Source: Anaerolineales bacterium (GTDB lineage: Bacteria > Chloroflexota > Anaerolineae > Promineifilales > Promineifilaceae). Taken from it: a stretch of 5,173 bases of DNA. Below are positions 1 to 5,173 of this stretch, in pieces. Location: contig JAGQGA010000421.1 of the NCBI GenBank assembly GCA_020432595.1, positions 1 through 5,173 on the forward strand, in the 5' to 3' direction. Under the pieces are notes generated by a model. That model worked only from the letters and a program-made list of their open reading frames with translations. It was not told where the DNA came from and did not search any database. The position numbers were made by a program, and so were the translations under genes. The first letter of the stretch is position 1; every line of letters begins with the position of its first letter.

Positions 1-278
1 TGGGCGATCTGTGGATTGACCAGCAGTACGGCATTGTCATCACCAACCCGCCCTACGGCGTGCGAATGGCTGAGTATCAGGCACTCAACCAGATTTACCT
101 CGCCCTCAACAAAATGTTCCGCAAAAAGCAAGGTTGGTCAGTCTACGTCCTCACCGCCGACCGCAAATTCCCCGACTACTTCAAACGCGCCCGCCCCGAC
201 CGCGTTCGCAAACTCTACAACGGCACCATTGAGACCAACTATTATCAGTATTATGGAGAAAAACCACCGGAAAATTGA
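1..278 (+). CDS. Class I SAM-dependent RNA methyltransferase, YpsC/RlmL-like, C-terminal fragment
   Basis: The gene is cut by the window edge. The last 91 codons are visible, in the frame beginning at base 3 and ending at a TGA at 276-278. The fragment opens with a beta strand leading into ITNPPYGVRM; the NPPY tetrapeptide at nt 45-56 is motif IV of amino-methyltransferases, which binds the target base amino group and S-adenosylmethionine. The tail contains GWSVYVLTADRKF and RKLYNGTIETNYYQYYG, which I recognise as the C-terminal signature of the YpsC/RlmL family. These THUMP-containing enzymes make N2-methylguanosine in 23S rRNA and are often mis-annotated as N6-adenine DNA methylases. The THUMP domain and SAM-binding motif I would lie upstream of the window. 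It is convergent with the large regulator, and the two stops are 90 bases apart. Family assignment is firm; the exact modified nucleotide is inference. Confidence 0.88.
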   Translation, partial: GDLWIDQQYGIVITNPPYGVRMAEYQALNQIYLALNKMFRKKQGWSVYVLTADRKFPDYFKRARPDRVRKLYNGTIETNYYQYYGEKPPEN

Positions 279-299
279 GGTTTGAGAATGGGAGACGAA

Positions 300-339
300 T
301 GATCGAGAACGTCATCCATGCCTGGTTCTCACATGATCA
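300..339. other. Bulged hairpin between convergent genes
   Basis: TGATCGAGAAC at 300-310 can pair with GTTCTC at 325-330 and GATCA at 335-339, giving 11 base pairs with a 4-base bulge (331-334) and a 14-base loop. It lies in the 90-base gap between the stops of the methyltransferase and the regulator, where a bidirectional terminator would be expected. Neither strand has a T-run after it, so it is not a standard intrinsic terminator. It may be a weak or Rho-assisted 3' end structure, or chance. The rest of 279-368 shows no gene or motif. Confidence 0.25.
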
Positions 340-368
340 ACTGTTCTCTATCTTGCGTAGTTTACTCA

Positions 369-3300
369 TCAAAATGATAAGCTGCTGTAGGCTCGCTGTT
401 GAAAACACTCTTTTAAGGTCTCATCAGGTATGATAGCAGCTAACTCCGTAATCAGAGTCTCTGCAGTCGCCAGTGCATTCTCGGCTGCTTCCCACTGCCC
501 CAAAATACTGTAAAGTCGTCCCATACTCGCATAAAGTCGCCAGAGTAAAAACCGTTCTCCTGTGGCCTGGGCATTGGCAATGGCGACCGGCAAAAGCGGT
601 AAAGCATCTTCTGGGCAGCCACTTGCTGCCAATGCTTCCGCCTTTAATTGCCACAGAAGCGTGATAACACGCCCCGGTAACAATCCCCGTGCCGAGGCGA
701 TTAACCGCTCCATGATGTCCAGAGCTATTGCTGCCTCTCCCTGCGCTAAAGCTAACTCAGCCCGCCGCATCCAACAGTAGCGTCTGCTCAAGGTGTCCAT
801 AGGGGTTTGTTCTGACACCACCATTGCCAGACAACACCCGGCTGAATCCAAATCATTTAGTCCTAAGTAGGCTTCGGTCAATGTTCCGCTTACCAGGTAG
901 ATCCACTGTGGGGAGTTCAGGTCTTTCGCCAGGGCCAACACGCTTTCCAATTGTTCTTTCGCTTCCTCATAGGCAAATAAGGCGACATGCAACATGCCTA
1001 GAGCAAATCGGGTAGCGACTACCCATTCGCCATGTCCAACTGCTGCAGCAATTTGGAGGCCACGCTGCATGATCTGAAGGGCAGCTCCAAAACGGCCGTT
1101 TACAATATGCCACAAACCATACGTCCAATGTGCCCAGGTCTCTTCTGAAACTGAACCAGTCTCCCTCGCAACTTGAAGTGCCTCATCAAAGTCCGAAGAA
1201 ACATTAGGCGCAGGCATAGCGGGCACAGAAACCCCATACACCAACACCGAGCCAATAGTAGCACGCCCTACCAAGCTAGATGCCAACCGTGGACGATTAT
1301 CCAATGCTCGAAACAGGGCAACAGCTTGATCATAATGACGGAGACATTGATTTAGATCGCCACCCAACATATTGGCAATTCCCAACAGATCAAGCGTATT
1401 CGCCAATTCTTGCTGATCGCCAAAATGATCAAAAATAGCCAACGCTTCCTCGTGGCAAGCAATAGCCTGTTGGGAATTCTCATCGTTGGCATACCAGTTA
1501 CCCATCCAGTTCAGGCTTCCTGCAAGCAAGGCTTGATCGTTAACACCACGCGCCAGTTCCAATGCTGCTTCAAAATATTCGCGGGTCTGGTTGTAGTTGC
1601 GTGAAGCCCACAATCGCCCCAAATCAATCAATGCTTGCCAAGCTATTTGATGGTTACCCGCAGCTTGGGCAAGCCCGAGGATCGTGGTGTGATCGCTGTC
1701 TGCCTGATTGAAATCACCCAGCCTTTCAGAAGCTATGCCACGCCCACGGTGCAGCGCAACCAGCGAGACCACATCTGGGGAAACCTTTTCCGAAAGCTGA
1801 ATAGCCCGCGTATAGTGGGTAATGGCCTCCCTACTCTCGTAAAGACGTGCGGCACGGTCGGCAGCCAAAGCTGAATAATGGAAGGCTTGTTGGTAATTAT
1901 CGGCTTGGTAAAAGTGATGGGCTAAGGTTACGGCTATCTCGTCTAATTGACCTGCATAAAGCTTTTCCAAGGCTGTGGCGACATCTCCATGCAATAGCTG
2001 CCGCTCTCTCTGGCTTAGAGATTGGTAGAGATATTCCTGAAAGAGAGCATGACCAAATTGGTAACGGGATATCCATCCTTGACCCGTATAAACCACTTCC
2101 TGTTCGCGCACAAGCCGGTGCTGCTTTTCTATATCCTGTGACAAACGATGCAGCAAGGCTCTTTCGTCCAAATGGGCCACGTCAGCTAACACTTGCGCCG
2201 TGAACAGTTCTCCCTCCACGCTGGCAATGGCGAGCACCTCGCGCAATTCGGGATCAAGGCGATCCATACGCTCTGCAATCACTGCCTCTACGCGAGCCGG
2301 AAGACCTTCCCAAGCCAGGGTTGGCCCTTCAATCCATGCCTGGTCAGCATCACGGATAAGTTCGCCCCGTGCCTGCATGTTGCCGAGCAGTTCAAGCGTG
2401 AAGAGAGGATGCCCCTTAGTACGCTCAAACAGACGGTCACGGAACCGTTCTCCCAAGCGATTATGCTCACCGTCTAAAAGGGCATCTGTGAATTTGCGTT
2501 CTTCCTCTTTTTCAGCTTGGCCCAATTCTATCCAGACATCACCGAAGACACGCTTGCATTCGTTTAGCACTTTGGCAAGGGGGTGGCGTTCGCCGCTGCG
2601 ATTTAGGGCAACCTCTTCAGGGCGATAGGCACAAACGATCAAGAGCCTGCTGCCCACATCAGCGAGCTGGCGGCTGAGGTGGAACAGGAGGGCAATGGAG
2701 GCGGTGTCTGCCCATTGGAGGTCATCGAGAAATAGCAATAACGGCCGTTTTTGCGCCACCGCATACAGCACATTTGTTACCTGCTGGAATAGATAGCTCT
2801 GTTCCAAATCCTTTGTTGTGACCCTACGGCGTTCAACTTGCTCTCGCAGGCGCGGCAGCCACGGCGCAACGGTTTGCCCCACAGCCGCCGAACGAGACAA
2901 AAGCACCGTTCCCGATACAAAGACCTCAAGCAAATCGGGGTCTTGGTTTAGCAAGGCAGGGATCACAAGTGCAGAGGCATCCCAGAGCCGCTGGGCATGG
3001 TCACGACTGATCGTTCCAGCCTGCCAACGACCTTCAATATCTCCGGTGAGCATTGCCAGTGCTTCGCGGTAAGGCAAATAGGGGTCGCCCATGCCAGCGT
3101 AGGCGTTGCATTTGCCGCTGGCAACCAAGAGGCTAGGGTGCTTTGCCATCGCCTGTTGGGCAAAGGTGGTCAGCAGCGCGGTTTTGCCACGACCGGGGCC
3201 ACCGGTAACAAATACAACGCGACCTTCTCCAGCGAGGGCGGTTTCGAGGAAGCTGTCTAATTGGGCTAACTCACGTTCGCGGCCGACGAAAAACGGCCGT

Positions 3301-4115
3301 TTAAACCTATGCTCCGCCGACTCATCCGTGAGAAAGGCGGGAAGCTGTGGCGGCAGATCGAGTTGACCCTGCTTGATCTGCTGATAAAGTGTGACTGTCT
3401 CTGTCGCCGGTTCAACGGCCAACTCCTCCCATAACACCTGCTGGCACAGCTCAAACTGGTGCAGAGCCGCGCCACGCTGCCCTGTCCACGCCAAAAAGCG
3501 CATCATCTGCCGGTGCGTTTCTTCATCCCACGGAGCAAAGCGTAGCAAGTGACGGGCATAGCGCAAAGCAGCAGGGTAGCGGCCTCGTCTAGTAAGCCCC
3601 TCGATGACCTGCTTCAAGATGATTTCGGCACGACTACGCCAGCGTTCCCGCTCATTCAGCAGCCAGTTCTCAAACTCCAGATTGTCATCCAGAACAAGGC
3701 CTTCGAGAAATTCACCGCCAAGCAAAACGGCCGTTTCTTCCCACCGTTCTTGCATTTCAAGCTGCACCAGGCGGTCAACATCAACGATTGTGCTGGCAGA
3801 GGGAGCAAAGGCTACTGCTTGGCGATTTAGCTCCCAACAATCGGGCAAAATTTGAGCCAGATTGTGGAGTTCGCGGCTGAGGTTGGCGCGCCCCTTGGCT
3901 GGCAGTGCGTCAGGCCAGAACAACGCCGCCAAAAAGTCGCGGGCGACGGGGCGGCGTTCGGCAGCAAGATAGCCAAGTAGCGCCACCGTGCGCCGCGAAC
4001 GGAAGCGCGGCACACCGCTTGCCAATGTTTCATGGGCATCGCTATCGTTTTCGGAGACTTGATCAACGCCAACCGGCCCTAGCAGCCTGAGGCGGCGCAT
4101 AATCTTTTGTGTCAT
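369..4115 (-). CDS. BTAD/SARP-type transcriptional regulator with STAND ATPase and TPR domains
   Basis: An intact protein of about 1,248 residues, apparently a cytoplasmic, signal-responsive transcription factor. Residues ~6-100 resemble the SARP winged helix (LRLLG start, RRTVALLGYLA, ALFWPD, NLSRELHNL). Residues ~108-250 are the bacterial transcriptional activator domain (ENWLLNERERWR; FAPWDEETHRQMMRFLAWTGQRGAAL). An AAA_16/STAND ATPase starts at FVGRERE (~277). Its Walker A is GGPGRGKT with K311, its Walker B is LLLFLDDLQWAD with D464-D465, then comes CAYRPEE (~495) and the STAND motif GHPLF (568-572). From ~720 to the end the protein is alpha-helical with TPR-like repeats, probably the sensor or partner surface. 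The order resembles AfsR-type regulators, and there is no C-terminal LuxR helix-turn-helix. The stop is TGA at 369-371. I chose ATG at 4115; an in-frame TTG at 4121 and ATG at 4100 are alternatives, and none has a strong Shine-Dalgarno. It is divergent from the SnoaL-like gene. The ligand and target genes cannot be read from the sequence. Confidence 0.93.
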   Translation of the reverse strand: MTQKIMRRLRLLGPVGVDQVSENDSDAHETLASGVPRFRSRRTVALLGYLAAERRPVARDFLAALFWPDALPAKGRANLSRELHNLAQILPDCWELNRQAVAFAPSASTIVDVDRLVQLEMQERWEETAVLLGGEFLEGLVLDDNLEFENWLLNERERWRSRAEIILKQVIEGLTRRGRYPAALRYARHLLRFAPWDEETHRQMMRFLAWTGQRGAALHQFELCQQVLWEELAVEPATETVTLYQQIKQGQLDLPPQLPAFLTDESAEHRFKRPFFVGRERELAQLDSFLETALAGEGRVVFVTGGPGRGKTALLTTFAQQAMAKHPSLLVASGKCNAYAGMGDPYLPYREALAMLTGDIEGRWQAGTISRDHAQRLWDASALVIPALLNQDPDLLEVFVSGTVLLSRSAAVGQTVAPWLPRLREQVERRRVTTKDLEQSYLFQQVTNVLYAVAQKRPLLLFLDDLQWADTASIALLFHLSRQLADVGSRLLIVCAYRPEEVALNRSGERHPLAKVLNECKRVFGDVWIELGQAEKEEERKFTDALLDGEHNRLGERFRDRLFERTKGHPLFTLELLGNMQARGELIRDADQAWIEGPTLAWEGLPARVEAVIAERMDRLDPELREVLAIASVEGELFTAQVLADVAHLDERALLHRLSQDIEKQHRLVREQEVVYTGQGWISRYQFGHALFQEYLYQSLSQRERQLLHGDVATALEKLYAGQLDEIAVTLAHHFYQADNYQQAFHYSALAADRAARLYESREAITHYTRAIQLSEKVSPDVVSLVALHRGRGIASERLGDFNQADSDHTTILGLAQAAGNHQIAWQALIDLGRLWASRNYNQTREYFEAALELARGVNDQALLAGSLNWMGNWYANDENSQQAIACHEEALAIFDHFGDQQELANTLDLLGIANMLGGDLNQCLRHYDQAVALFRALDNRPRLASSLVGRATIGSVLVYGVSVPAMPAPNVSSDFDEALQVARETGSVSEETWAHWTYGLWHIVNGRFGAALQIMQRGLQIAAAVGHGEWVVATRFALGMLHVALFAYEEAKEQLESVLALAKDLNSPQWIYLVSGTLTEAYLGLNDLDSAGCCLAMVVSEQTPMDTLSRRYCWMRRAELALAQGEAAIALDIMERLIASARGLLPGRVITLLWQLKAEALAASGCPEDALPLLPVAIANAQATGERFLLWRLYASMGRLYSILGQWEAAENALATAETLITELAAIIPDETLKECFQQRAYSSLSF
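1090..1101. repeat. Iterated palindrome AAACGGCCGTTT, copy 1
   Basis: Perfect 12-base palindrome inside the TPR part of the regulator gene, where it encodes N-G-R-F (residues 1006-1009). It is one of five copies of the AACGGCCGTT core in the window. This reading frame differs from copies 2 and 3. Confidence 0.8.
2740..2749. repeat. Iterated palindrome AACGGCCGTT, copy 2
   Basis: Perfect 10-base core; the outer pair is T/T, so the 12-mer is not complete. It lies in the regulator gene at the start of the Walker B strand and encodes K-R-P-L (residues 456-459). Confidence 0.75.
3291..3302. repeat. Iterated palindrome AAACGGCCGTTT, copy 3
   Basis: Perfect 12-base palindrome in the regulator gene at the entry to the ATPase domain, encoding K-R-P-F (residues 272-275) just before FVGRERE. 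It has the same frame as copy 2. Confidence 0.8.
3725..3736. repeat. Iterated palindrome AAACGGCCGTTT, copy 4
   Basis: Perfect 12-base palindrome in the BTAD part of the regulator gene. Here it is read as E-T-A-V (around residues 127-130), with the core in the same codon phase as T-A-V. Its peptide is unlike those of copies 1-3. Confidence 0.8.
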
Positions 4116-4172
4116 TTTCAACTCTGCGTTTCGGTTCCCCTGGCAGTTTTGTGCGTTGGGGGTAATGTGAAA

Positions 4173-4181
4173 ATCATACCA
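4173..4181 (-). promoter_or_regulatory. Candidate extended -10 promoter of the regulator gene
   Basis: Read on the - strand, the sequence is TGGTATGAT: an extended -10 TG one base upstream of TATGAT, which matches the TATAAT consensus at five of six positions. No good -35 hexamer lies 16-18 bases upstream, as is allowed for extended -10 promoters. It would start transcription about 50 bases before the ATG at 4115. This is motif reading only. Confidence 0.35.
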
Positions 4182-4219
4182 GGTGGAGTGGATAAATAGT
4201 GGAGAGTTGTCCTGTACAC

Positions 4220-4232
4220 TGATACTGTATCA
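4220..4232. promoter_or_regulatory. Candidate operator palindrome TGATACTGTATCA
   Basis: A 13-base perfect dyad with 6-base arms around one central base, in the non-coding region between the two divergent genes and upstream of the regulator's candidate -10. The size and symmetry suit a dimeric DNA-binding protein. The regulator itself is one candidate binder, but SARP-type proteins usually bind direct repeats, so another protein is equally possible. Confidence 0.35.
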
Positions 4233-4235
4233 ACA

Positions 4236-4309
4236 ACAAATCCTATTTACGTTTAGCATTATAAAGCCGACGAGGGTGAAACGTAAAGAGCATAAGCAGA
4301 TGGATTTGT
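4236..4309 (+). promoter_or_regulatory. Nested inverted repeats upstream of the SnoaL-like gene
   Basis: The outer arms ACAAATCC (4236-4243) and GGATTTGT (4302-4309) and the inner arms TTTACGTTT (4246-4254) and AAACGTAAA (4279-4287) are each perfectly complementary. The inner loop is 24 bases. The arms are separated by 2 bases on the left and 14 on the right, so an RNA could form a 17-base-pair stem with an asymmetric internal loop. This may be a structured 5' leader or paired protein sites. I recognise no known riboswitch class. No convincing + strand promoter was found nearby, so whether it is transcribed is unknown. Confidence 0.4.
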
Positions 4310-4337
4310 CTATGCAGATAAAAAAATTTTTGCGTAG
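4310..4337 (+). other. A/T-rich hairpin in the leader region
   Basis: CTATGCA (4310-4316) can pair with TGCGTAG (4331-4337), with one G-T wobble, enclosing a run of seven A followed by five T. It directly abuts the nested inverted repeats. The A/T tract could also simply be intrinsically bent promoter DNA. Confidence 0.25.
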
Positions 4338-4342
4338 AGGAT

Positions 4343-4354
4343 AAACGGCCGTTT
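4343..4354. repeat. Iterated palindrome AAACGGCCGTTT, copy 5 (intergenic)
   Basis: The only non-coding copy of the 12-base palindrome, 33 bases before the Shine-Dalgarno of the SnoaL-like gene. If transcribed it could form at most a four-base-pair stem with a GGCC loop, so RNA structure does not explain it well. Confidence 0.8.
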
Positions 4355-4387
4355 TTACCCACCCCAAAAAAGTGATTTCAAAACGGC

Positions 4388-4393
4388 AAGGAG
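4388..4393 (+). promoter_or_regulatory. Ribosome binding site AAGGAG of the SnoaL-like gene
   Basis: AAGGAG is a near-consensus Shine-Dalgarno, 12 bases before the ATG at 4406. The spacing is longer than ideal, but no in-frame start lies closer. It favours 4406 over the internal ATG at 4448. Confidence 0.6.
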
Positions 4394-4405
4394 AAAAGTG
4401 TTGTC

Positions 4406-4960
4406 ATGACAATCTCAGGAAAACGGTTAGAGGAAAAAAGCACTTCCATGAATTTTTCGTGGGGGCAACTGTTGGTAGCGCTTCTCTTGCTCGTTGTGGG
4501 GCTGCTTGCTGGCTATTACATCACTTCAGCCTTTAGCAGCAGCACACCCAGCGAAGCAGAAATTGCCGCAGAGGTGGCAGAAATTAGAGGGATGTCGGTC
4601 AAATACGCAGCTGCCTTAAATGCCGGTGACTTTGAGAATTGGATTGTTTTGTGGGATCCAGAAGGCGTGCGGATGCCGCCCGATCAACCGCAGAGTGTTG
4701 GTCTCGAAGAAATTCGGGCGACGGTGGAGCCGGGTTTTGAAGCCTTTGATTTCAGCAACTTTGCTGTCAGCATTGATGAAATTCTGGTTTTTGGCAACAA
4801 AGCCTATATGCGCGGCCCGTACCATTTCTCGATGACACCAAAAGAAGGCGGGGAAACGCTCAATTTTGAGGGCAAGTATCTCAGCGTCCTCAGAAAACAA
4901 GCTGACGGTTCCTGGAAATTCTATATTGATTGCTTCAACTATGATGGCCCACCCGCCTAA
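4406..4960 (+). CDS. Membrane-anchored SnoaL-like/DUF4440 (NTF2 fold) protein
   Basis: A protein of 184 residues. Residues 1-15 are polar with K6, R7 and K11. One hydrophobic helix at ~19-43 (QLLVALLLLVVGLLAGYYI) has no lipobox, so it reads as an uncleaved signal anchor with the C-terminal domain outside the cytoplasm. After a short Ser/Thr linker, residues ~52-178 match the SnoaL-like/DUF4440 pattern of the NTF2 superfamily: an N-terminal helix ending YAAALNAGDFENWI, a strand LWDPEGVRMPP, a G-x-EEIRA helix, and the C-terminal strands GKYLSVLRKQADGSWKFYIDCFN. This fold makes a cone-shaped pocket and serves as an enzyme, binding protein or subunit, so the activity cannot be assigned. The start at 4406 has an AAGGAG; ATG at 4448 would remove the charged N-terminus but keep the anchor. 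A strong terminator follows, so it is probably a single-gene transcript. Confidence 0.9.
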   Translation: MTISGKRLEEKSTSMNFSWGQLLVALLLLVVGLLAGYYITSAFSSSTPSEAEIAAEVAEIRGMSVKYAAALNAGDFENWIVLWDPEGVRMPPDQPQSVGLEEIRATVEPGFEAFDFSNFAVSIDEILVFGNKAYMRGPYHFSMTPKEGGETLNFEGKYLSVLRKQADGSWKFYIDCFNYDGPPA

Positions 4961-4987
4961 CCATGCTGAATCGCTCGTGCTAACATG

Positions 4988-5019
4988 AAAAGCTGCCCTC
5001 AAAAGAGGGCAGCTTTTTT
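4988..5019 (+). terminator. Rho-independent terminator of the SnoaL-like gene
   Basis: A perfect 13-base-pair stem, AAAAGCTGCCCTC (4988-5000) with GAGGGCAGCTTTT (5005-5017), closes an AAAA loop and ends in a run of six T (5014-5019). It begins 27 bases after the TAA stop at 4958-4960. The A-run on the other side means it could also act weakly on the - strand. Confidence 0.95.
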
Positions 5020-5035
5020 GCTGATAGGCCCCAAA

Positions 5036-5041
5036 GGGAGG
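5036..5041 (+). promoter_or_regulatory. Strong Shine-Dalgarno before a small ORF
   Basis: GGGAGG lies 5 bases before an ATG at 5047, a near-ideal arrangement. It is the main reason for taking the following 25-codon ORF seriously. Confidence 0.45.
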
Positions 5042-5046
5042 AAGTG

Positions 5047-5124
5047 ATGATTAAGCAAATTCTTCAAGTTGTTGCGCGTACTTTCATTTTGCTCTCTCGG
5101 CTCTTTGGGAATTCAGGGGGTTGA
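5047..5124 (+). CDS. Possible 25-residue hydrophobic/basic small protein
   Basis: ATG at 5047 opens 25 codons ending with TGA at 5122-5124. The peptide reads MIKQILQVVARTFILLSRLF followed by GNSGG: a helix of about 20 residues with basic residues at positions 3, 11 and 18, then a flexible Gly-rich tail. It would suit a small membrane-associated or amphipathic peptide, as seen for type I toxins and other small membrane proteins, but I recognise no family. In favour is the strong ribosome binding site. Against is the terminator ending only 27 bases upstream, which leaves little room for a separate promoter. It could instead be a decayed gene start or a chance ORF. Confidence 0.35.
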   Translation: MIKQILQVVARTFILLSRLFGNSGG

Positions 5125-5135
5125 CTTGCTTTTGA

Positions 5136-5170
5136 CGTGGTGCGTGGTGCGTGATACGTGGCACATGAAC
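5136..5170. repeat. Degenerate 7-base tandem repeat
   Basis: Successive 7-base units beginning at 5136 read CGTGGTG, CGTGGTG, CGTGATA, CGTGGCA, CATGAAC. The first two are identical and the rest drift progressively. The tract starts 11 bases after the small ORF stop and runs to within three bases of the window end, so its true length is unknown. It looks like the edge of an intergenic low-complexity repeat. Confidence 0.5.
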
Positions 5171-5173
5171 CTT

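Follow-up and report, generated by a model that had tools for sequence, protein, structure and literature searches.

A dispersed palindromic octamer with a CGGCCG core in Chloroflexota resembles the highly iterated palindromes of cyanobacteria

Introduction

The highly iterated palindrome (HIP) called HIP1 was reportedly noted in cyanobacteria by Robinson in 1995. The present study concerns a palindrome of similar behavior in the phylum Chloroflexota, which was encountered in a 5,173-nucleotide stretch of DNA from an Anaerolineales bacterium (assembly GCA_020432595.1, contig JAGQGA010000421.1, positions 1 to 5,173 of the forward strand), referred to below as the window. A preliminary description, made from the letters of the window alone, had called its 10-mer, AACGGCCGTT, a HIP1-like iterated palindrome, and this view was supported by the excess and the positional conservation found in related genomes. 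The strict unit of the motif is the octamer ACGGCCGT, a refinement of AACGGCCGTT drawn from those relatives. The explanation that we favor, with about even confidence, is that the octamer is the site of a symmetric (dimeric) DNA-binding protein and is held under selection.

Uptake sequences of the Neisseriaceae and Pasteurellaceae occur in lineage dialects, and restriction sites tend to be avoided; CGGCCG is the EagI site and GCGGCCGC is the NotI site. In the accessible parts of Elhai (2015; PMC4390886), HIP1, GCGATCGC, is described together with alternate HIPs of cyanobacteria, such as TCGATCGA, which share its core but differ in the outer bases. Those parts state that a putative fitting methylase is present in every such genome, yet they list HIP1 genomes without a CGATCG methylase, and the function of HIP1 is presented as still argued over (PMC4390886). 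Known uptake sequences are described as non-palindromic in the corresponding parts of Bakkali (2007; PMC1939737), and their mismatched forms as over-represented too. A signature of the HIP type, with a constant core and a changing outer base, is undescribed for Chloroflexota in the literature searched; none of the papers listed from the open-licence PubMed Central literature described the motif or a HIP in Chloroflexota. For lake Chloroflexi, the accessible sections of Hiraoka (2019; PMC6329791) report methylation of GANTC, TTAA and GCWGC and not of the present motif, those of Elhai (2012; PMC3497702) contain no mention of Chloroflexus-like names, and those of a 2023 overview of wastewater Chloroflexota (PMC10746286) mention neither methylation nor motifs.

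Excess in the window and in related genomes

The window holds five exact copies of AACGGCCGTT against 0.016 expected under an order-3 Markov model, which bears out the very large excess first described. The expectation fell to 0.005 when the copies were masked, and the Poisson probability of at least five copies at 0.0159 was 8e-12, or 9e-9 when multiplied by the 1024 palindromic 10-mers. No extra copy of AACGGCCGTT appeared in the window when two mismatches were tolerated, and at least five matches with two mismatches were reached in 15 of 200 shuffles of the window; the signal therefore sits in the exact copies.

The named relatives of the regulator encoded in the window belonged mostly to Chloroflexota groups, and two of them were Candidatus Promineifilaceae. 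Against 56 genomes of the order, its long matches had 39-45% identity and its short ones at most 63% (G204); a 52% relative (L001) came from a genome, G001, with one copy of the 10-mer. The RpoB of G406 matched a protein named Anaerolineae, probably itself, at 100%, and further ones named Ardenticatenaceae at 95%, Candidatus Promineifilaceae at 94% and Candidatus Leptofilum at 93%. The family of 52 genomes considered below may be read as Promineifilaceae, and a seven-genome clade around G328 is probably Candidatus Promineofilum.

The 12-mer AAACGGCCGTTT was present in 98 of 396 genomes of the class, where its reversed control occurred 0-26 times, and reached 10-987 copies in 23 of them; 22 of these 23 belong to the one family, and G136 lies outside it. 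In the family of 52, 27 genomes had 564-5060 copies of the 10-mer (reversed control 1-42), two more had 361 and 396, and the remaining 23 had 4-149 (control 0-42, but 157 in G402). The preliminary description had held that a genome count near the Markov expectation, or copies confined to this locus, would reduce the excess to chance or to one gene; the relatives lay far above Markov, and the 27 genomes with hundreds to thousands of copies argue against confinement. The family genomes were sorted by hand into 36 carriers, G402 (another core), G400 (weak) and 14 without the motif, and the carriers into 27 with ACGGCCGT, 2 with TCGGCCGA, 1 with GCGGCCGC and 6 with the bare core CGGCCG. Eight ACGGCCGT labels (G405, G408, G412, G244, G388, G378, G214 and G315) were given by the 10-mer count, and the label "without" of G335, G409, G410, G411, G328, G413, G414 and G415 by whole-genome counts of two strings, so that these genomes may carry other HIPs; the samples of G335, G400, G413 and G414 were only 3-5 kb and say little.

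The octamer ranked first of the 256 palindromic octamers in ten carriers, in stretches of 14-101 kb, with 21-191 copies against 0.8-7.8 expected (Markov), a density of one per 491-1141 bp or 880-2040 per Mb. It was also top-ranked in nine more genomes, and hence in all 19 genomes of that spelling that were sampled, while 10 of the 27 had no stretch ranked for palindromes or short ones only. In the relatives, then, ACGGCCGT is the most over-represented palindromic octamer, at hundreds or more per Mb, as is typical of the HIP class. Outside the octamer, CGGCCG occurred 116, 96, 80 and 17 times in four 100-kb samples, near the 123, 76, 75 and 28 expected for all CGGCCG, which indicates that those genomes have the octamer as their unit and not the hexamer. 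From these relatives, the window's own genome would be expected to be rich in the motif.

Anatomy and distribution of the octamer

The outer A and T around CGGCCG co-occurred, with odds ratios of 2.4-41 in ten genomes; A was preferred more weakly at the next two positions outward, mostly independently. In 19 genomes (869 kb, 1326 copies), one-off variants of ACGGCCGT at the outer base were enriched 4.9-fold for T, 2.4-fold for G and 1.1-fold for C. The TCGGCCGA genomes behaved likewise (outer variants 2.1-2.7-fold, core variants 0-0.96), so that deviations fell at the outer positions in genomes of both spellings, as in the HIP class. The single GCGGCCGC genome deviated, with outer variants at 0.8-1.4-fold and core variants at 0-2.8-fold, each variant counting 0-4 copies.

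Two alternatives are touched by this anatomy. A mutation or conversion bias of another kind, such as a mismatch-specific nuclease or biased gene conversion acting with neither methylation nor function, is distinctly improbable in our judgment. It would fit the finding that core near-misses were not enriched despite thousands of copies, which means that decayed copies are not accumulating. Two findings speak against it: the outer bases depend on one another across six bases, which would not be expected from a bias on single bases, and the outer base varies between lineages. A DNA-uptake sequence, built up by preferred uptake and recombination, appears very improbable. Lineage spellings around a constant core do resemble uptake-sequence dialects, and the sites, which are dispersed, keep their positions. 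Strict palindromy with co-dependent halves, however, sets the motif apart from the non-palindromic sequences known (PMC1939737, accessible parts), and this makes the uptake role, one of those suggested at first, less likely. The lack of enrichment of core near-misses offers a weak contrast with uptake sequences, as a cyanobacterial palindrome is reported to behave similarly (PMC1939737, same parts).

Copies of ACGGCCGT were found at one per 621 bp of coding and one per 988 bp of noncoding DNA (123 in 122 kb), with reading frames assigned by a simple longest-frame rule. The coding copies fell unevenly into the three codon phases (632, 396 and 175), which indicates that the protein sequence influences where sites are placed; dispersal over all phases and noncoding DNA is again as in the HIP class. 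Gaps below 20 bp were depleted (6 against 41 expected), partly since copies cannot overlap.

Conservation by position

Positional conservation between orthologues, including synonymous positions, had been named at the outset as a check, and it was seen in the relatives. Of 64 octamers compared between G358 and G388, which have 92.7% identity over 31 kb, 59 were intact, against 60-63% of other octamers (P 9e-8). In comparisons with five genomes at 71-73% identity, 6/17, 7/19, 8/17, 10/23 and 7/12 sites were intact, with controls at 5-15%. Codons that lay wholly inside sites and encoded an unchanged residue were identical in 106/107, 17/20, 18/23, 22/25, 24/28 and 15/17 cases, where matched codons outside sites predicted 87.4, 8.6, 10.5, 11.1, 14.1 and 8.8, respectively; the amino acids inside sites were not consistently better kept (0.62-0.99 vs 0.74-0.95). 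Apart from the octamer, two short dispersed repeats were noted in G358, one at L113:8085-8161, with many scattered matches in G388, and one at L113:10315-10377, with matches in G214 and G315.

In rpoB, pairs of ACGGCCGT genomes with identities in the 70% and 75% bins had 194 of 278 and 880 of 1197 sites in common (controls 13-16%). Sites of ACGGCCGT genomes were common to the seven-genome clade in 10/327 and 9/143 cases at similar divergence, to TCGGCCGA genomes in 0/148, and to other motif-less genomes in 21/624. At four places in rpoB, the octamer was carried by 14/16, 21/22, 19/22 and 16/23 ACGGCCGT genomes; at the first two, the peptides GRPL and YGRI were identical in every genome with letters there, and other genomes encode the same peptide without the octamer. 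The seven-genome clade had one octamer in its entire rpoB, and both TCGGCCGA genomes carried TCGGCCGA where none of 22 ACGGCCGT genomes carried the octamer. The sharing of sites and the matched-codon results together indicate that the DNA word is kept, not the protein, and that its keeping depends on lineage.

An explanation by local chance, codon usage or constraint on the protein carries practically no weight. The uneven codon phases in relatives would suit it; against it stand the thousands of copies in relatives, the 123 noncoding copies, the excess conservation over matched codons and the rpoB peptide that is encoded elsewhere without the octamer. Chance and codon usage were accordingly rejected, as genome counts, matched codons and rpoB sharing contradict them.

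Alternate spellings and their history

The spelling TCGGCCGA occurred 62 times in 40 kb of G094 (2.7 expected) and 63 times in G399 (2.0 expected), and GCGGCCGC 56 times in 40 kb of G181 (2.4 expected), where ACGGCCGT was found 0 times. Six genomes (G281, G416, G352, G204, G417 and G151) had CGGCCG with no dominant outer base; in these, the hexamer occurred 27-101 times in 8-27 kb, 3.9-9 times expectation, and ranked first of the 64 palindromic hexamers. Whole-genome counts of CGGCCG and GCCGGC were 13814 and 51 in G181, and 21019 and 132 in G151. In both genomes, GCCGGC is almost absent, as though it were avoided while its mirror CGGCCG is collected. An alternate HIP with another core was observed in the same family: in G402 (L164, L289), TGCCGGCA was iterated 32 times in 40 kb against 2.9 expected, and again 15 times in an independent stretch against 1.4, and CGGCCG was nearly absent (1 against 12.7).

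No wider CGGCCG excess was seen in Chloroflexota among 397 of 400 phylum-wide genomes, the other three having been recognized as belonging to the order. The highest ratio of CGGCCG to GCCGGC in the 397, judged by eye, was 3.4 in G669, an 11-kb sample of which showed no CGGCCG excess. Elsewhere in the phylum, G455, G447, G479, G514 and G463 had 43, 47, 27, 23 and 81 copies of CGGCCG and 5432-8052 of GCCGGC, a near-absence that looks like restriction avoidance. G136, outside the order, had 16 copies of AAACGGCCGTTT genome-wide, and its stretches L279 and L280 had a modest excess of the octamer (8 against 1.4) and, likewise, of AACCGGTT (8 against 1.4). A further candidate, CACGCGTG in G551, which numbered 18 in 20 kb (L276, C1:1-20000) against 1.1 expected, was discarded as local, with 3 copies in two more stretches.

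An rpoB tree covered 50 of the order's 56 genomes, as G358, G383, G405, G410, G412 and G416 gave no usable rpoB, and the four outgroup genomes on it were without the motif. The ACGGCCGT genomes were clustered, with 3 changes against a shuffled mean of 16.8 and 0 of 500 shuffles as low. The seven-genome clade, almost without the octamer (support 100), lay inside a 32-row clade (97) that also holds ACGGCCGT genomes; both TCGGCCGA genomes grouped with one bare-core genome (support 99), and four bare-core genomes formed one clade (support 100). The simplest reading would be a gain in the family, changes of the outer base and a loss in the seven-genome clade; this loss is not forced, since the branching inside the 32-row clade is partly open.

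Candidate readers of the palindrome

A methylation target had been among the first suggestions for the role of the motif, and a single conserved methylase was not supported. The 5-methylcytosine (m5C) methylase family PF00145 was missing from 14 of 36 carriers and MutL from 2 of 36 (P 4e-5 at a 12% miss rate), and PF01555 gave no match better than 1e-15 in 9 of the 36. D12 methylases were found in 42 of 52 genomes, missing in 6 carriers and present in non-carriers. The motif DPPY, usual for adenine methylases, stood in the 20 D12 methylases that were read, four of them from non-carriers. None of the three families tested spans all 36 carriers, and the results did not support one methylase family as the cause. 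Five carriers (G363, G167, G407, G412 and G204) lacked both PF00145 and a confident PF01555, and of these, G407 and G363 combine long contigs with the presence of both MutL and rpoB; five of 36 is, however, what a 12% miss rate gives (P 0.44). Clustering of 59 of 60 methylase loci yielded patchy groups only. A patchwork of methylase families across carriers may be at work, as the five double-negative genomes fit incompleteness alone.

These results bear on methylation-guided biased repair, the model of Elhai for cyanobacterial HIP, which is the main rival reading and which we consider rather unlikely here. In a model of this type, a cytosine methylase would mark the core and mark-directed mismatch repair would keep the mutations that create the palindrome, with no function needed. 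Several of our observations would fit: outer-base variants were enriched and core variants were not, as reported for HIP1 in the accessible parts of Elhai (PMC4390886), the density of the octamer falls within the 500-2500 per Mb given there, MutL was present in 34 of 36 carriers, and m5C methylases were commoner among carriers, with 22 of 36 against 2 of the 15 others (the 14 genomes without the motif and G402). The gaps in PF00145, so much more frequent than those in MutL, the carriers without a confident PF01555, and the DPPY-type D12 methylases that are missing in some carriers and present in non-carriers count against the model, as do the five carriers without either family, for which the miss rate would suffice. 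In addition, the GmeC step of the model would fail to explain an outer base that is obligatory and switches between lineages, since GGCC already contains GC and the step would not predict an obligatory outer base.

Proposed selection for the site of a DNA-binding protein

Selection for the site of a symmetric DNA-binding protein, the reading favored above, would work as follows. The five copies in the window would be a local sample of a highly iterated palindrome with the unit ACGGCCGT, at about one per 0.5-1.1 kb. The candidate factor would be symmetric (dimeric) and sequence-specific, for example a nucleoid-organizing or a repair/recombination protein, and would require sites close to nearly every point on the chromosome. 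New sites would come about through point mutations that the protein sequence tolerates and would be held by purifying selection, and a change in the specificity of the factor would change the outer base of its sites. In favor of this reading are several findings in relatives: the excess throughout their genomes, the joint occurrence of the outer A and T, the keeping of sites as DNA words in a lineage-dependent way, spellings that switch around an unchanging core, the near-absence from one clade, and the lack of a tested methylase family common to all carriers. A fuller version, to which we give only tentative credence, is that the motif represents a chromosome-wide palindromic address that arose in the Promineifilaceae independently of cyanobacteria, with a putative dimeric reader that is not a classical DNA methylase; the core CGGCCG would stay constant, the outer pair would be A, T, G or none, and the factor and its thousands of sites would change together.

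A number of observations weigh against this reading or limit it. No reading factor was found, and no unbiased search for one was made. Core near-misses of ACGGCCGT were mostly at or below expectation (0.39-1.18), which a biased-repair ratchet explains equally well, and PF00145 methylases were associated with carriers (Fisher p 0.002, uncorrected for kinship, in a comparison where carriers tend to be larger). Gaps between sites were irregular (coefficient of variation 1.14); regular spacing was not found, which leaves no spacing rule to back an architectural role. The octamer was no denser in rpoB (one per 985 bp) than elsewhere; nor was confinement to housekeeping genes seen, the 35 methylase loci of ACGGCCGT genomes (of 60, L031-L090) having one octamer per 811 bp. 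The bare-core and ACGGCCGT genomes had 65 of 341 rpoB octamers in common, with control octamers at 9-14%, and the genome pairs in all rpoB comparisons are not independent of one another. The weakest sample, 20 kb of G254, had just 9 copies of ACGGCCGT (0.9 expected), and two bare-core genomes showed a slight preference for an outer base, namely G281 (ACGGCCGT 7 against 0.9) and G151 (TCGGCCGA 7 against 1.2). Within the seven-genome clade, G068 had a mild excess (CGGCCG 157 against 100, ACGGCCGT 9 against 2.9); the CGGCCG/GCCGGC ratio of G036 was 2.6, and G335, labeled as without the motif, sat among ACGGCCGT genomes on the tree.

A second case of HIP in another phylum, with several spellings and a clade nearly without the octamer, supplies natural contrasts. 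Across these contrasts, the reader of the sites has to be either different or absent, and it can thus be sought by comparison of gene content. The case also allows the methylation-repair model of such signatures to be tested outside cyanobacteria.

Copies in the window and their setting

The features of the window are as follows.

1091..1100, unstranded: copy 1, AACGGCCGTT within AAACGGCCGTTT, in the regulator gene, read as NGRF
2740..2749, unstranded: copy 2, AACGGCCGTT without the 12-mer extension, in the regulator gene, read as KRPL
3292..3301, unstranded: copy 3, AACGGCCGTT within AAACGGCCGTTT, in the regulator gene, read as KRPF
3726..3735, unstranded: copy 4, AACGGCCGTT within AAACGGCCGTTT, in the regulator gene, read as TAV
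4344..4353, unstranded: copy 5, AACGGCCGTT within AAACGGCCGTTT, in the intergenic DNA that separates the regulator from the SnoaL-like gene
3280..3285, unstranded: CGGCCG core number six, within GCGGCCGA, lacking the outer A/T; no copy of the octamer
369..4121, minus strand: regulator with BTAD, AAA_16 and TPR, 1250 amino acids, host of four copies
4406-4960: SnoaL-like gene, divergent from the regulator
3-278: UPF0020 (RlmKL-like) methyltransferase domain, fragment

The preliminary description had placed the five copies at exactly these starts, and its account of them held throughout: four extend to AAACGGCCGTTT, the exception being that at 2740, one (4344) is intergenic, and the four in the regulator gene, translated as above, lie in codon phases 0, 1, 1 and 2, that is, in all three. 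GCCGGC had zero occurrences in the window. The regulator belongs to a large family, with 4-21 matching stretches per genome in the 56 genomes (with at most 12 candidates scored in each). Past the SnoaL-like gene, at 4988-5019, an inverted repeat followed by T's resembles a terminator by eye.

Comparison with known systems

CGGCCG is found here in large excess, unlike avoided restriction sites, for which the 43 copies against 8052 of GCCGGC in G455 provide the comparison. With the uptake sequences of the Neisseriaceae and Pasteurellaceae, the motif has in common that it is short, dispersed and present in thousands of copies; it is a palindrome with co-dependent halves, where an uptake sequence would be non-palindromic and of one orientation. 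The likeness to the cyanobacterial HIPs, as set out in the accessible parts of Elhai (PMC4390886), goes further: a dispersed palindromic octamer occurs at hundreds to thousands of copies per Mb in genic and intergenic DNA, alternates share the core and differ in the outer bases, deviations are mostly at the outer positions, and the core by itself shows no excess when octamers are left out of the count. Unlike in the cyanobacteria treated there (PMC4390886, same parts), none of the methylase families tested was found in all carriers. HIP1 in the strict sense is GCGATCGC in a cyanobacterium, whereas the core here is CGGCCG, the relatives are Chloroflexota and four spellings occur in one family. 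The motif works like cyanobacterial HIP1, yet it is not HIP1.

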